Assembly (NCBI GenBank): GCA_944390935.1
Contig: CALXRU010000001.1
Coordinates: 62,001-126,000 of the forward strand
DNA: 64,000 nt
Direction of reading: 5' to 3'
DNA from: Acidaminococcaceae bacterium
GTDB lineage: Bacteria > Bacillota > Negativicutes > Acidaminococcales > Acidaminococcaceae
Position numbers and translations under genes: made by a program. Each line of letters opens with the position of its first letter. Within the stretch, counting starts at the first letter, position 1. Below the pieces are notes generated by a model. It searched no databases. It had not been told where the DNA came from and saw only the letters and a program-made list of their open reading frames with translations. Shown here one piece after another: positions 28,758-34,415 of the stretch.

Positions 28758-28797
28758 AAAATGGTTTACCTGTTGATTTTCAGGTAAACCATTTTTA
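28758..28797 (+). terminator. Terminator of the salvage/nfn operon
   Basis: A perfect 15-bp stem, AAAATGGTTTACCTG (28758-28772) with CAGGTAAACCATTTT (28781-28795), in an A...T frame that can act in both directions, here also for the convergent AbiTii gene. Confidence 0.93.
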
Positions 28798-28827: not shown

Positions 28828-29478
28828 TTAATTTTTATTTGTTATTTGAGTCGAACCTAATGTATTTTGCTGTATTTGTGAATTTTCAACATTACCTGAA
28901 ATATTAATATAATAATTTTTAATTTCAGGTGTAGCACTTGCTATTTCTTTTTCTTTTATTGAAAAATTTATATTATCACCAGTTATACCTTTATCTGATA
29001 ATAATAATCCCCAATTTAATATTTCGTTTTTAACCATTTCAATAACATCTAAAATTGAACTTCTGTCGATAATTAAATATGTTTCCATCTGTAAAGATGG
29101 ATTATGTTTCCAGAATTCATTTAATACCTCTGGCGCAAATGACATCATTAAAATACCCTTTTCTTTACTAATTAAATCCAAACATTTTGGAATGGAGTCA
29201 GCTATTTTTCTTGTAGAAAAATAAAGTTCTGATTCAAGTGAATCAAAAATCATAGGACACCATCCATGAAAAGGATTAAAAAATTTTACTGTTCCTTTTA
29301 TATTTCTGTATTCCGGTATTAATTCATTTCCTTTGTATCCTTCAAGTTCATTTTTTATCCATTTTTCAGTTTCTTTTAAATCTAATTTGTGACTAATTAT
29401 TAAAGATTTTCTTAAGATAGAGACAACATCACAGTTAGGATTACTAACTTCTTTTAGCAAATCGTCAATTAAACTCAT
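28828..29478 (-). CDS. AbiTii-domain protein (putative phage-defence/abortive-infection protein)
   Basis: The N-terminal ~90 residues match what I know of the AbiTii domain: an LLRKSLIISHKL-like helix, ETEKWIKNELEGY, PEYRNIKG and FNPFHGWCPMIFD. The rest is less distinctive. The C-terminus (191-211) is a beta-like, Asn/Gln-rich motif, I-x-I-x-G...IQQ....S-x-Q, repeated in register in the divergently numbered partner encoded just upstream. AAAGGAGG precedes the ATG. Base composition is strongly AT-rich and codon use differs from all flanking genes, a sign of recent transfer. The biochemical activity is unknown; a defence role is inferred from the domain name and from the neighbouring restriction system. 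Confidence 0.75.
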   Translation of the reverse strand: MSLIDDLLKEVSNPNCDVVSILRKSLIISHKLDLKETEKWIKNELEGYKGNELIPEYRNIKGTVKFFNPFHGWCPMIFDSLESELYFSTRKIADSIPKCLDLISKEKGILMMSFAPEVLNEFWKHNPSLQMETYLIIDRSSILDVIEMVKNEILNWGLLLSDKGITGDNINFSIKEKEIASATPEIKNYYINISGNVENSQIQQNTLGSTQITNKN

Positions 29479-29496
29479 TTGTTCCTCCTTTTATCA

Positions 29497-29847
29497 TTAA
29501 GATAGTTGTGATAATAATGCATAAATCCCTGAAGAAATGACACCTGTTGCAATATCGCTACAAGAATTTTTTAATTTCGCTATATAGCTTTTTACTTTTG
29601 ATGGTTCTTCCTTTTCTTTAACTAATGCTATGGTTTTATCTAATAAACTCTTAAAATCTTCTGCTGTTATATCAAATTCATTGGCAAATTCATCAGTAGA
29701 TGTATAGGTTTTTATTTTATTAAGAGTTTGTAAAATTTTATTATAGTCTAAACTTTCAATATTGATACTTTGAACAGAATTCTGATTCCCCTGTTGAATA
29801 ATCGTTTGATTAGTTGTACCTTTAATTATTATAGTATTATTGTTCAT
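29497..29847 (-). CDS. Small protein paired with the AbiTii gene; unknown function
   Basis: A 116-residue protein I do not recognise. The N-terminus (residues 6-26) carries I-x-I-x-G...IQQ....S-x-Q, the same motif at the same spacing as the C-terminus of the AbiTii protein. The middle is helical and charged (about 32-92, EFANEFDITAEDFKSLLDKT), and the C-terminal ~20 residues are small and hydrophobic (IATGVISSGIYALLSQL), possibly membrane-contacting. AGGTGA lies 5 bp before the ATG. It is 18 bp upstream of the AbiTii gene on the same strand, so the two form an operon. It is as AT-rich as its partner. Confidence 0.65.
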   Translation of the reverse strand: MNNNTIIIKGTTNQTIIQQGNQNSVQSINIESLDYNKILQTLNKIKTYTSTDEFANEFDITAEDFKSLLDKTIALVKEKEEPSKVKSYIAKLKNSCSDIATGVISSGIYALLSQLS

Positions 29848-29914
29848 TATATCACCTCAAAACATTTCACTAATTTCATTATACTACAATTACATAATTA
29901 TTTTATATATAAAT

Positions 29915-29944: not shown

Positions 29945-29989
29945 ATAAAGGTAAACTGCTTTTAATTTATAGGTAAAGGATTGAAACTA

Positions 29990-31750
29990 ATGGCTAATAA
30001 ACTGGAACTTACATGGTACGGTAAAGAGAATGAACCCAAAATAGAACCGCGCCTGCTGATTGAAAATAAAGAACTTTCCAATACAGAAAATGACCCGCAA
30101 ACTGAAAATATGCTTATACACGGCGATAATTTGCTGGCACTGAAAGCATTGGAAAATAAATATGCCGGTAAGGTAAAGTGCATTTATATCGATCCTCCGT
30201 ATAATACTGGCAGCGCTTTTGAACATTACGATGATAATTTAGAACATAGCCAATGGTTAAGTTTGATGAAACCAAGGCTTGAATTATTAAAAAATTTATT
30301 ATGTGATAATGGTTGTATTTTTTTACAAATTGATGATGAAGAACAAGCTTATTTGAAAGTGTTATGTGACGAAGTATTTGGACGTAATAATTTTGTGAAT
30401 ATGATTTCAGTAAACATGAAAAATACTGCTGGTGCCTCTGGTGGTGGAGAAGATAAAAGATTAAAAAAGAATTGTGAATATATTTTAATATACTCAAAGA
30501 ATTATAACTATTTTGAAAATTTTAATCCAATATTTGAATATACAGAAATGATAAAAGTTGTAGAAGATTACCGAAAACAAAATAAAACATGGCATTATAA
30601 TTCTATATTAATTGACGCAGGTAAAAAATTTTATATTGGCTCAACTGAAACAGGTAACGGTAGTGAAATAAAAGTATATGTTAGAAAAAATCCTATTATA
30701 AAATCTATTAAGCAAACAATGAAAGAAGAAAATCTTACAGAAGAAGAAGTATATTATAAGTATTCTAATTTTATTTTTGAAGCAAAAGATGCACAAACAT
30801 CTATTAGAGACAGAGTAATAAATGCAAAAACTAATTTTAAAATCATAGATGATTTAGTTTCGATAGAATATGTACCAACAACAGGGAAAAACAAAGGAAA
30901 AATTTATGAACAATTTTATAAAGGTAATAAATGCAGATTATTAGCATGGTTAAAAGATATAGGTGAAATTAGAAACAGTATTTTATATAAAAAAGATTTA
31001 CAAGGAACTTATTGGGATTTAACTGCACAAATAAATAATGTAACTAAAGAAGGAACTGTTATTTTCCCTAACGGAAAAAAGCCAGAAGAATTAATTAAAC
31101 GTATTATTTACATGTCTACAACAAACCCCAGCGACCTTGTACTCGACAGCTTTCTTGGTAGTGGCACAACCGCAGCAGTAGCACATAAAATGGGGCGTAA
31201 ATGGATTGGTATTGAAATGGGCGACCATGCATACACCCATTGCAAAGTGCGCCTTGATAAAGTTATCAGCGGCGAAGATAAGGGCGGCATAACAAAAGCT
31301 GCCAACTGGCAGGGTGGGGGCGGCTACCGTTTTTACGAACTGGCACCGTCCTTAATCAACGAGGACGCTTTCGGCGAATACATAATCAATAAAGATTACA
31401 ATGCTGATATGCTGGCAGCCGCAGTTGCCCTGCACGAAGGTTTTACTTATAACCCTTCGGAAGAAACCTTTTGGAAGCAATCAACCGGCAGCGAAAACAG
31501 CTATTTGTTTGTTACAACAAAACATGTAACAACAGCATACTTGCAGGCTATTGCCGATACCATGCAGGAAGGCGAATATTTAATTATCGCCTGCAAATCT
31601 TTTGATAAAACTGCTGAAAACGCCTTTAAAAACATAGTTGTTAAAAAGATACCGCAAATGCTGTTAAGCCGCTGCGAGTTCAACAAAGATAATTATAATT
31701 TAAATATTGTTCATCCGCCTGTATATGATGAGGTTGAAGATGATGACTAA
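29990..31750 (+). CDS. mod: Type III restriction-modification system, DNA adenine methyltransferase subunit
   Basis: Beta-class N6-adenine methyltransferase that gives the type III complex its sequence recognition. Motif IV is YIDPPYNTGSAF (about residues 66-77); the target-recognition region lies between about residues 85 and 365; motif I, DSFLGSGTTAAVAHKMGRKWIGIE, follows. ATG 29990 has AAAGGA 9 bp upstream; TTG 29981 abuts it and is rejected. The ends have the base composition of the genome, while the recognition region (about 30.24-31.09 kb) is markedly AT-rich, as if exchanged as a block. The stop overlaps res. No simple-sequence repeat for phase variation is visible. Confidence 0.93.
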   Translation: MANKLELTWYGKENEPKIEPRLLIENKELSNTENDPQTENMLIHGDNLLALKALENKYAGKVKCIYIDPPYNTGSAFEHYDDNLEHSQWLSLMKPRLELLKNLLCDNGCIFLQIDDEEQAYLKVLCDEVFGRNNFVNMISVNMKNTAGASGGGEDKRLKKNCEYILIYSKNYNYFENFNPIFEYTEMIKVVEDYRKQNKTWHYNSILIDAGKKFYIGSTETGNGSEIKVYVRKNPIIKSIKQTMKEENLTEEEVYYKYSNFIFEAKDAQTSIRDRVINAKTNFKIIDDLVSIEYVPTTGKNKGKIYEQFYKGNKCRLLAWLKDIGEIRNSILYKKDLQGTYWDLTAQINNVTKEGTVIFPNGKKPEELIKRIIYMSTTNPSDLVLDSFLGSGTTAAVAHKMGRKWIGIEMGDHAYTHCKVRLDKVISGEDKGGITKAANWQGGGGYRFYELAPSLINEDAFGEYIINKDYNADMLAAAVALHEGFTYNPSEETFWKQSTGSENSYLFVTTKHVTTAYLQAIADTMQEGEYLIIACKSFDKTAENAFKNIVVKKIPQMLLSRCEFNKDNYNLNIVHPPVYDEVEDDD

Positions 31751-34415
31751 AGCCGATTTTTTTAAATATACAACTGAATATATCAGCGGCGTACTTTCGC
31801 TGCGTAAACCGCAAAGCGAATCGCTGAAAATTTTAGATAATATCGTTAAAAGCGTTAACTTAAACAAAAATGCTGATATAAGCAGCAATTTAAGCATTGT
31901 AAACAGCTTGTACCCAATCTGCACCAGCTTTGAAAGGGATTTTATGTCCCTGACTTTCGCGCTGGCAACCGGTGTAGGCAAAACAAGGCTGATGGGTGCA
32001 TTTATTGCTTATTTATATACGCAGCATAATATCCGCAACTTTTTTGTGGTTGCGCCGGGCACTACGGTTTACGAAAAATTAAAACAGGATTTGGGCAACC
32101 CTGCTAACCCCAAATATGTGTTTAAGGGCTTGGGTTGTTTCAGCAGTACGCCTTATATCATTGCCGATGATGATTACCGCGATAAAAGCATTAAGCTTGA
32201 TGTAAACGATATTAACATTTTTGTTTTCAACATTGATAAATTCAACAAAGAAGAAAGCAAAATGCGTTCTATCAATGAATATCTCGGTCAATCGTTTTAT
32301 GATGAACTGGCTGCGCTTGACGACCTTGTAATTATCATGGACGAATCGCACCATTATCGCGCTAAACGCGGTGCAGCAGCTTTAAATGACCTGCACCCCC
32401 TTATGGGGCTGGAGCTTACCGCCACGCCGTATGTAAAAAGCGGTACGCGGCAGGTAAATTTTAAAAACGTAGTTTATGAATATCCGCTGTCGGCGGCTAT
32501 CGCTGACGGTTATACCCGCACGCCTAAAGCAATGACGCGCCGTGATGTAAATTTTTATAATTTCGGCGATGAAGAAACTGATATTTTAATGCTGCAAGAT
32601 GGGCTTTTATCGCATGAAAGAATTAAAGAAGAATTAAAAGCCTATGCCGAAAATAATGGTTTACCTGTTGTTAAACCCTTTATGCTTGTTGTTTGCAAAG
32701 ATACCGAACACGCAAAATGGGTGGAGGATTATATTAAATCAGATGCTTTTGGCAATGGTGCATATAAAAATAAGGTTATAACCGTTCATTCCAAGCAGAG
32801 TGGGGCAGAGAGCGAAGCTAATTTAAGCCTTCTGCTTTCGGTTGAAAGCCCAGAAAATCCGGTAGAAATTGTTATTCATGTCAACATGCTTAAAGAAGGT
32901 TGGGATGTTAACAACCTTTATACCATTGTGCCTTTACGCACGGCAGCTTCTAAAATCCTGCGCGAGCAAATGGTTGGGCGAGGGTTAAGGCTGCCTTACG
33001 GCAAACGAACTGGCAACGAGGTAGTTGATACTGTTGTTTTAACGGCGCACAGAAATTTTAACGATATTTTAGAAGAAGCTAAACGCGGCGATTCTATTTT
33101 TAAAGCCGGTAATGTTATTTACGTTGAAACAATCGAAAAACAGCATACGGAAGCGGCACAAATTGCTTTGATTGAAACAACAGATGAAGAAACGGAAGCT
33201 GTTTGTGAGAAACTTGATTTGCCGAAAAATACAAAGACATACGATTTTGTAGACGATATAAAATTTGACATAATTGAAGCAATGTCAGGTTTCTTAACCT
33301 ATTCACAAAAAGCTAAAACAGAAGAAAGCAAAACTTATAAATCTGTAAAAGAAAAAATTGTTAATAATATTGTACAAAAAGCCAAAGAAAATAAAGACCT
33401 TGGCGAGCATTTTATGGAAAATGCCCATCCTTTGGCTGCATGGGTTGATAAAAAAGTTGATGAAGTTAAAAAGAAAATGCAGGAGAAGTTTATTCCTATT
33501 CCGCAAATTAAAGTTTCAGACAGCGGAACGCAGGAATACTGCTTTACTGATTTTGACCTTGATGTAAACGCTTTTAAACGTTTTACGCCTATTGACAATG
33601 AAATACTTATCCAAAGCCTTACAGACCCGACAGAAATAAAACTTGTTAAAGGCAAAGCTATTGATTTTGGCGGATATAATCCGCTTAAGAAGGTACTGAA
33701 CTTTTTGCGTGAAAAGCCTGAAATTGATTATGAAAAATGTTCAGACCTTTTATTTAAACTTATCAGCCAGTGCTGTGCTTATTTGCAAACAAAGCACGGC
33801 GAAAACGGGTTGCATAACATTGTTATGATGTATAAACGCGATATAGCAGAAACAATTTACAAACAAATGATGCAGCATTTTTATTGTGACGACGGTTTGA
33901 TTGCTGATGAGGTTATGAGCGGGCGTGATTACAATTTGCGCCCGAACTATACACACACTAAAAGGTTGGATTTGTATGATAGTTTTGAAGCAGGAAAGGT
34001 AAAAAGTATTTTGTTTACCGGCATAAAAAAAGGCGTGTTTGCAACTGCCGGTTTTGACAGCGCCCCGGAAGTTTATTTTGCACGCTTATTGGAGCGCGAC
34101 GCTGATGTTAAAAACTGGCTGCGTCCATCTGCCAAAGAGTTCAATTTAACTTATAACAACGGCAGGCAGTACGAACCGGACTTTGTTGTGGAAACAGACG
34201 ATTTAATTTATCTGACGGAAGTAAAAGGCGAAGATAAATTAAATGACCCTGATGTTATCGCCAAGAAGAAAACCGGTATCCGTTATTGCCGTATTGTTTC
34301 CGACTGGTCTAAAGCCAACGGTTATAAAGAATGGCGGTATTTGTTCATACCTTCACAGCAGATACATTCAAATTCTACTTTTAAAACACTGGCAAAACAG
34401 TTTACTGAAGAATAA
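31740..34415 (+). CDS. res: Type III restriction-modification system, restriction/helicase subunit
   Basis: Superfamily 2 helicase-nuclease that translocates or diffuses along DNA and cuts when two unmethylated sites are encountered. Walker A is ATGVGKTRLMG, the DEAD-like box is IIMDESHHYR, and helicase motifs V-VI are HVNMLKEGWDVNNLY and EQMVGRGLRLPYG. The C-terminal PD-(D/E)xK nuclease is YEPDFVVETDDLIYLTEVKG. About 891 residues, a normal size. The start is ATG 31740 or 31743 inside the end of mod; TTG 31707 is too far into mod. The gene appears intact, so with mod the system should be active. Confidence 0.93.
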   Translation: MMTKADFFKYTTEYISGVLSLRKPQSESLKILDNIVKSVNLNKNADISSNLSIVNSLYPICTSFERDFMSLTFALATGVGKTRLMGAFIAYLYTQHNIRNFFVVAPGTTVYEKLKQDLGNPANPKYVFKGLGCFSSTPYIIADDDYRDKSIKLDVNDINIFVFNIDKFNKEESKMRSINEYLGQSFYDELAALDDLVIIMDESHHYRAKRGAAALNDLHPLMGLELTATPYVKSGTRQVNFKNVVYEYPLSAAIADGYTRTPKAMTRRDVNFYNFGDEETDILMLQDGLLSHERIKEELKAYAENNGLPVVKPFMLVVCKDTEHAKWVEDYIKSDAFGNGAYKNKVITVHSKQSGAESEANLSLLLSVESPENPVEIVIHVNMLKEGWDVNNLYTIVPLRTAASKILREQMVGRGLRLPYGKRTGNEVVDTVVLTAHRNFNDILEEAKRGDSIFKAGNVIYVETIEKQHTEAAQIALIETTDEETEAVCEKLDLPKNTKTYDFVDDIKFDIIEAMSGFLTYSQKAKTEESKTYKSVKEKIVNNIVQKAKENKDLGEHFMENAHPLAAWVDKKVDEVKKKMQEKFIPIPQIKVSDSGTQEYCFTDFDLDVNAFKRFTPIDNEILIQSLTDPTEIKLVKGKAIDFGGYNPLKKVLNFLREKPEIDYEKCSDLLFKLISQCCAYLQTKHGENGLHNIVMMYKRDIAETIYKQMMQHFYCDDGLIADEVMSGRDYNLRPNYTHTKRLDLYDSFEAGKVKSILFTGIKKGVFATAGFDSAPEVYFARLLERDADVKNWLRPSAKEFNLTYNNGRQYEPDFVVETDDLIYLTEVKGEDKLNDPDVIAKKKTGIRYCRIVSDWSKANGYKEWRYLFIPSQQIHSNSTFKTLAKQFTEE

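Follow-up and report, generated by a model that had tools for sequence, protein, structure and literature searches.

AbiT is an abortive-infection system of lactococci known from studies of 2002 and 2012. Its two proteins in Lactococcus lactis, AbiTi and AbiTii, are reportedly 127 and 213 residues long, respectively, and the hydrophobic C-terminus of AbiTi is said to be essential, both according to the 2002 work of Bouchard. In E. coli, the AbiTi of Coprococcus catus has been shown to act as a toxin that its AbiTii does not neutralise (PMC3985639); AbiTi is therefore likely to be the effector, and the pair is unlikely to be a classical toxin-antitoxin system. In other proteins, AbiTii domains are joined to HEPN RNase domains (PMC3710099), in keeping with AbiTii acting as a sensor or adaptor. 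AbiT itself is thus already known; in the searchable literature, which is mostly open-access, we found no molecular link given between AbiTi and AbiTii, no tie of AbiT to homotypic or amyloid motifs and no description of AbiTii-AbiTi fusions, so that neither the fusion relation nor the motif reading presented here had been published there.

Amyloid signalling has been described in fungi and in bacteria with BASS/BELL pairs, where a sensor and a helical killer protein share a motif of ~25 residues (PMC7889193; PMC8086366), and the field itself asks whether amyloids also serve as signals in Archaea and independently of NLR pathways (PMC7889193). In this paper, we have analysed a two-gene locus in a DNA stretch of 64,000 nucleotides (hereafter the window, i.e. 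the whole of that stretch) together with its relatives, and we propose, with a probability of roughly 0.58, that in AbiT a homotypic, probably amyloid-like motif couples the sensor AbiTii to the toxic effector AbiTi without an NLR. Such a conserved homotypic motif is a directly testable mechanism and would account for the requirement for two genes.

The AbiT locus and the motif shared by its two proteins

By its profile matches the two-gene locus is the known AbiT system, because the larger protein is recognised as AbiTii by PF18864 (127.5 bits, cut-off 27.6, in the Pfam scan) and the smaller one as AbiTi by PADLOC over its whole length, residues 2-115 being aligned to positions 1-113 of the 114 of PDLC02333 (Table 1); the same Pfam scan gave no significant match for AbiTi. 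An earlier note on this DNA had read the pair as a two-gene defence module of AbiTii and a 116-residue protein that it left unnamed. This reading is borne out, both open reading frames being recovered at the positions it gave on the minus strand, and the unnamed partner is AbiTi (PDLC02333). AbiTi lies upstream of AbiTii on the same strand with 18 bases separating the open reading frames, forming a putative operon, and the pair is the sole match to the AbiTi and AbiTii families in its own genome.

The pair is flanked by a glutamate-synthase-like gene and, divergently, by a type III restriction-modification pair at 29981-34415 on the plus strand (N6_N4_Mtase, E 1.9e-48; ResIII, E 2.4e-22), with which it makes up a small defence islet amid housekeeping genes. 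Terminator-like sites number three in the region, against 0.2 expected.

Table 1. Coordinates of the AbiT features in the window
Feature	Position	Strand	Evidence
AbiTii gene, 216 aa, proposed sensor half	28828..29478	-	Pfam PF18864 E 9.3e-37; PADLOC AbiTii E 5.8e-37
AbiTii globular domain, residues 2-182	28933..29475	-	extent of Pfam match; homologous L043 domain with pLDDT mostly >90
AbiTii C-terminal motif, residues 191-211	28846..28908	-	in-register match to AbiTi; AbiTi profile matches
AbiTi gene, 116 aa, proposed toxic effector half	29497..29847	-	PADLOC PDLC02333 E 9.6e-26
AbiTi N-terminal motif, residues 6-26	29770..29832	-	in-register match to AbiTii tail; conservation; pLDDT <50
AbiTi four-helix bundle (predicted), residues 35-113, last helix hydrophobic	29509..29745	-	AlphaFold2, pLDDT ~88-95
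Shine-Dalgarno-like AGGAGG before AbiTii	29484..29489	-	sequence
Shine-Dalgarno-like GAGGTG before AbiTi	29853..29858	-	sequence
Terminator-like perfect 15-bp stem-loop, between AbiTii and convergent gene	28758..28795	.	stem-loop count

The tail of AbiTii (INISGNVENSQIQQNTLGSTQ, residues 191-211) and the head of AbiTi (IIIKGTTNQTIIQQGNQNSVQ, residues 6-26) share eight identities in register, in the form of I-x-I-x-G-x6-I-Q-Q-x4-S-x-Q, exactly as the earlier note had described. N, Q, S, T and I abound in both 35-residue ends of the pair. At least 8 of 21 identities arise in 9% of composition-preserving shuffles of these ends, and the local-alignment score has p ~0.11-0.13 against such shuffles; taken from the window pair alone, the match is within chance and suggestive only. 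It is the homologues that make the motif real and significant. The first 28 positions of the PADLOC AbiTi profile match residues 187-214 of the AbiTii tail at E 2.8e-4, and a module profile built without AbiTii tails matches this tail at E 1.7e-4 in a whole-genome search, where just two places in the genome were matched. Furthermore, 11 other split pairs bear the motif, in Clostridia, a cyanobacterium, a Patescibacterium and an archaeon, and all 11 beat shuffled tails (each p <= 0.0055). The motif is conserved and recurs in homologous pairs, where it ends one protein and begins its partner, as the earlier note had it.

The motif has the consensus G-x-[VIM]-x-x-S-Q-[ILF]-Q-[QI]-x-[ST]-x-x-[SG]-x-Q. 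Among 45 AbiTi modules, Q hardly varies at aligned positions 16, 18 and 26 (the window AbiTi has I at position 16), and conservation is higher in the motif block than in the bundle (mean relative entropy 2.10 vs 1.54). In the AlphaFold2 model of the window AbiTi a confident four-helix bundle spans residues 35-113 and the motif has a pLDDT below 50, while the model of an AbiTii-AbiTi fusion (L043, see below) has a confident AbiTii domain, the same four helices and a disordered segment at 197-216 that coincides with the motif; in both models the motif is predicted to be disordered between folded parts. A structure-library search with the AbiTi bundle returned generic four-helix bundles only, and searches with the fusion model and with AbiTii sequences returned nothing significant. 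The hydrophobic end of the small protein, which the earlier note had thought could meet a membrane, is present and modest: its best 19-residue Kyte-Doolittle mean is 1.11, below the usual transmembrane values, and reaches up to 2.1 in relatives. The C-terminus is better described as amphipathic to hydrophobic than as a clear transmembrane helix. On the proteins tried, there was no Pfam match to RHIM or another amyloid-motif family; weak Pfam matches, e.g. to GIT1_C and HeLo (E 0.01-0.2), were below the cut-off and were set aside.

Fused and split forms of AbiT and their motif classes

The window AbiTi, used as a query, had no match in plasmids, phages or viral contigs, and the family was therefore reached via AbiTii and profiles, which yielded ~100 AbiTii loci in a sample that spans plasmids, viral contigs and genomes. 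Among 398 genomes of the same phylum, AbiTi was found in its own genome, the only other match being weak and false (a sugar transporter); weak matches of the AbiTi profile to PTS sugar-transporter proteins in L004 and L132 are likewise probably due to chance, from hydrophobic helices.

The commonest form of AbiTii homologue found is a fusion of ~300 residues, in which the AbiTii domain is followed by a single motif at the junction (e.g. NSQIQQNTTNSTQ) and then by the AbiTi helical domain with its hydrophobic end; that most homologues are such single proteins was not recognised in the earlier note. The PADLOC AbiTi profile covers the C-terminal part of these fusions (L043, E 6.5e-14; L005, E 1.1e-7), and a genome-wide run matched the fusion of G405 at E 8.2e-14; since the profile matches these regions, fusion AbiTii is AbiTii and AbiTi in one chain. 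In the other main architecture, AbiTii ends just after the motif, and the neighbouring gene encodes the motif and the helical region. As judged from these homologies, AbiT is the split form of a system that otherwise consists of one protein, and each half bears the motif. Split pairs occur in Clostridia, among them [Eubacterium] tenue and Paraclostridium (L082, L085), as well as in an archaeon (L069); both genes of the split pairs carry the motif in all but L130, where the AbiTii tail is worn. Many proteins filed only as AbiTii hence already contain an AbiTi-like effector, which would alter the counts of defence-annotation tools.

Several split loci have an extra domain before the AbiTi module, of ~165 residues (L049, L052, L129, L131), ~95 residues (L082, L085) or ~90 residues (L130). 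The ~165-residue N-terminal domain (MAQGIIGGATSYEEQSL...) is conserved (L049 2634-3485, L052 2636-3484, L129 1489-2337, L131 1486-2340), has no Pfam match in L049, and is perhaps a second sensor. A second type of C-terminal domain, W[IL]GxMxxKAAxGxW...YYG, follows AbiTii with different junction sequences (L008 3992-4876, L014 3995-4882, L061 3501-4424, L081 3480-4382, L017 1444-2397) and probably represents a further class of effector that goes with this sensor. Two copies are decayed, one being a fused AbiTii with an in-frame TAG inside the junction motif (L055 430-1320) and the other an AbiTii without its start and with no adjoining AbiTi (L065 3504-4085). In addition, the PADLOC candidate PDC-M14B matches the motif and the helical module at L043 3486-4397 (residues 187-287) and L085 2862-3488, a hint that such an output cassette may occur in a broader set of defence proteins.

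The distribution of the motif was followed with the module profile from whose building the short AbiTii tails had been left out, run on 13 whole genomes at E <= 0.01. Each of the nine genomes with intact SQIQQ-class split pairs had exactly two matches, one in the partner that covers the full module and one at the AbiTii tail that covers positions ~3-30. One match each was obtained in the fusion genomes G405 and G1086 and in G559, which holds the split pair with the worn tail. Motifs of unrelated sequence are also matched within a locus, i.e. GAVQxG in the cyanobacterial pair (L009) and VGAMGD in the Patescibacterial pair (L105), and a NIID-MTNSS motif is common to the members of a Fibrobacter tandem (L151). 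As natural negative controls, two short AbiTii without the motif (L138 1477-2680, L140 1489-2674) are paired with membrane partners that also lack it. Cognate scores exceed permuted scores over 12 pairs (p 0.0034) and over 14 pairs (p 0.0001); inside the SQIQQ class, pair-by-pair specificity or co-variation was not found, cognates scoring no higher than non-cognates (p 0.46). The common ancestry of the two halves may explain some of the class matching.

At the two control loci, the partner gene beside AbiTii encodes an N-terminal hydrophobic helix. In Fibrobacter, three AbiTii paralogues with another motif variant stand in a row (L106 2847-5292, L151 41-2100), in the order short-fused-short in L151 and downstream of a restriction specificity-like gene in L106.

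A proposed coupling of sensor and effector, and its alternatives

In the coupling that we propose, AbiTii, with its folded alpha/beta domain and short tail motif, would most likely sense a phage product, upon which the AbiTii tails would nucleate a beta-rich, probably amyloid-like stack. This stack would recruit and template the AbiTi motifs and thus concentrate the helical bundles, which would then damage the membrane and halt phage production; in split AbiT, the motif would be needed on both halves to reconnect sensor and effector. Homotypic assembly is favoured because a sensor and a helical toxic partner that share a conserved, disordered stretch of ~25 residues with many N, Q, G, S and T have the layout of amyloid signalling in fungi and BASS/BELL bacteria. 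Such a coupling would resemble the amyloid-type immune signals of fungi and animals, and the amyloid-like or stacking module that the earlier note had suggested is plausible. The points against it are that the window pair is within chance, that the SQIQQ class lacks pair specificity, that no amyloid family of Pfam is matched by the proteins tried, that the bundle resembles generic bundles only and that the hydrophobic end of the window AbiTi falls short of the usual transmembrane values; a scar of gene fission would likewise leave the motif on both halves. If the assembly reading is true, it partly answers the question of NLR-independent and archaeal signalling amyloids (PMC7889193). A farther-reaching version, which we hold as tentative and somewhat short of an even chance, has AbiT as an NLR-independent, prion-like signalosome in which a RHIM-related amyloid would be templated onto the membrane-active AbiTi, and takes the motif-bundle module for a general output cassette of bacteria and archaea, which most relatives would have fused to AbiTii and other defence candidates to different N-terminal domains.

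The conservation and class-matching data would also fit if the two proteins were joined by a closed beta structure, e.g. a trimeric or hexameric beta-helix or a strand-swapped hetero-oligomer, giving a complex of fixed stoichiometry with no open-ended templating. Fused proteins with one motif could also oligomerise in this way, and fibrils of the motif are a prediction only. We consider it unlikely, though a serious contender, as a globular fold of the motif is not predicted in the models of the window AbiTi and L043, and as the length, the N/Q/G/S make-up, the disorder of the monomer and the layout of sensor and killer are those of published amyloid motifs (PMC8086366, PMC7889193).

The motif could also be an inherited linker: an AbiTii-AbiTi fusion would have been duplicated and trimmed, its junction being left on both halves and tolerated with no role in signalling. 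Three observations agree with this: fusions predominate among the homologues found and have the motif right at their junction, the AbiTii tail of L130 is worn, and pair-level specificity is absent. The linker reading is rather improbable given that the helical bundle is less conserved than the motif block, that the motif is kept at AbiTii tails in Clostridia and an archaeon with AbiTii ending right after it, and that AbiTii without the motif accompanies partners without it.

The operon layout and the toxicity of the C. catus AbiTi (PMC3985639) would suit a toxin-antitoxin system, in which AbiTii would keep AbiTi bound and inactive until a phage infects, with the motif as the neutralising contact. 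We give this very little credence: AbiTii gave no neutralisation in the published co-expression test (PMC3985639), and the fusions would bind toxin to antitoxin permanently. Finally, chance similarity of two segments rich in N, Q, S, T and I, which the window pair alone would allow (p ~0.09-0.13), is refuted by the profile matches and by the 11 of 11 other motif-bearing pairs.

Comparison with described systems

The AbiT of L. lactis has the same two protein families by profile, the same gene order (AbiTi then AbiTii) and proteins of similar sizes, while its host lineage, to judge from gene content, differs within Bacillota from that of the window. The C-terminal part of PDC-M14B, which has candidate status, matches the motif and the AbiTi-like module (L043, E 3.7e-10), whereas its N-terminal region differs from the AbiT proteins. 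With RHIM and the fungal PP motif, the likeness is one of sequence: SQIQ[QI]G-x-x-N resembles the RHIM core, which is G-(I,V)-Q-(I,V)-G (PMC7885112), and several fusions read SQIQIG with the motif in a central position, as noted for RHIM. However, the AbiT motif usually has Q where RHIM has I or V, the window pair departs from the core, and Pfam gives no match.

There is a parallel in layout with the BASS/BELL pairs (Dyrka 2020, reviewed in PMC7889193), which like AbiT consist of adjacent genes for a sensor and a small helical killer-like protein, with a motif of 20-30 residues matched within the locus. The BASS receptor, however, is an NLR (NB-ARC/NACHT) with an N-terminal motif, whereas AbiTii has the AbiTii domain as its sole domain and the motif at its C-terminus; and in the BASS effector the BELL helical bundle with its hydrophobic helix is N-terminal to the motif, whereas the AbiTi bundle is C-terminal to it. 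The position of the motif in AbiT, at the C-terminus of the sensor and the N-terminus of the effector, is thus the reverse of that in BASS. BASS pairs occur mainly in filamentous bacteria, and the AbiT motif pairs in unicellular Clostridia and an archaeon. As the defining NLR feature is missing, AbiT is not filed as a BASS pair; it may nonetheless work like one.
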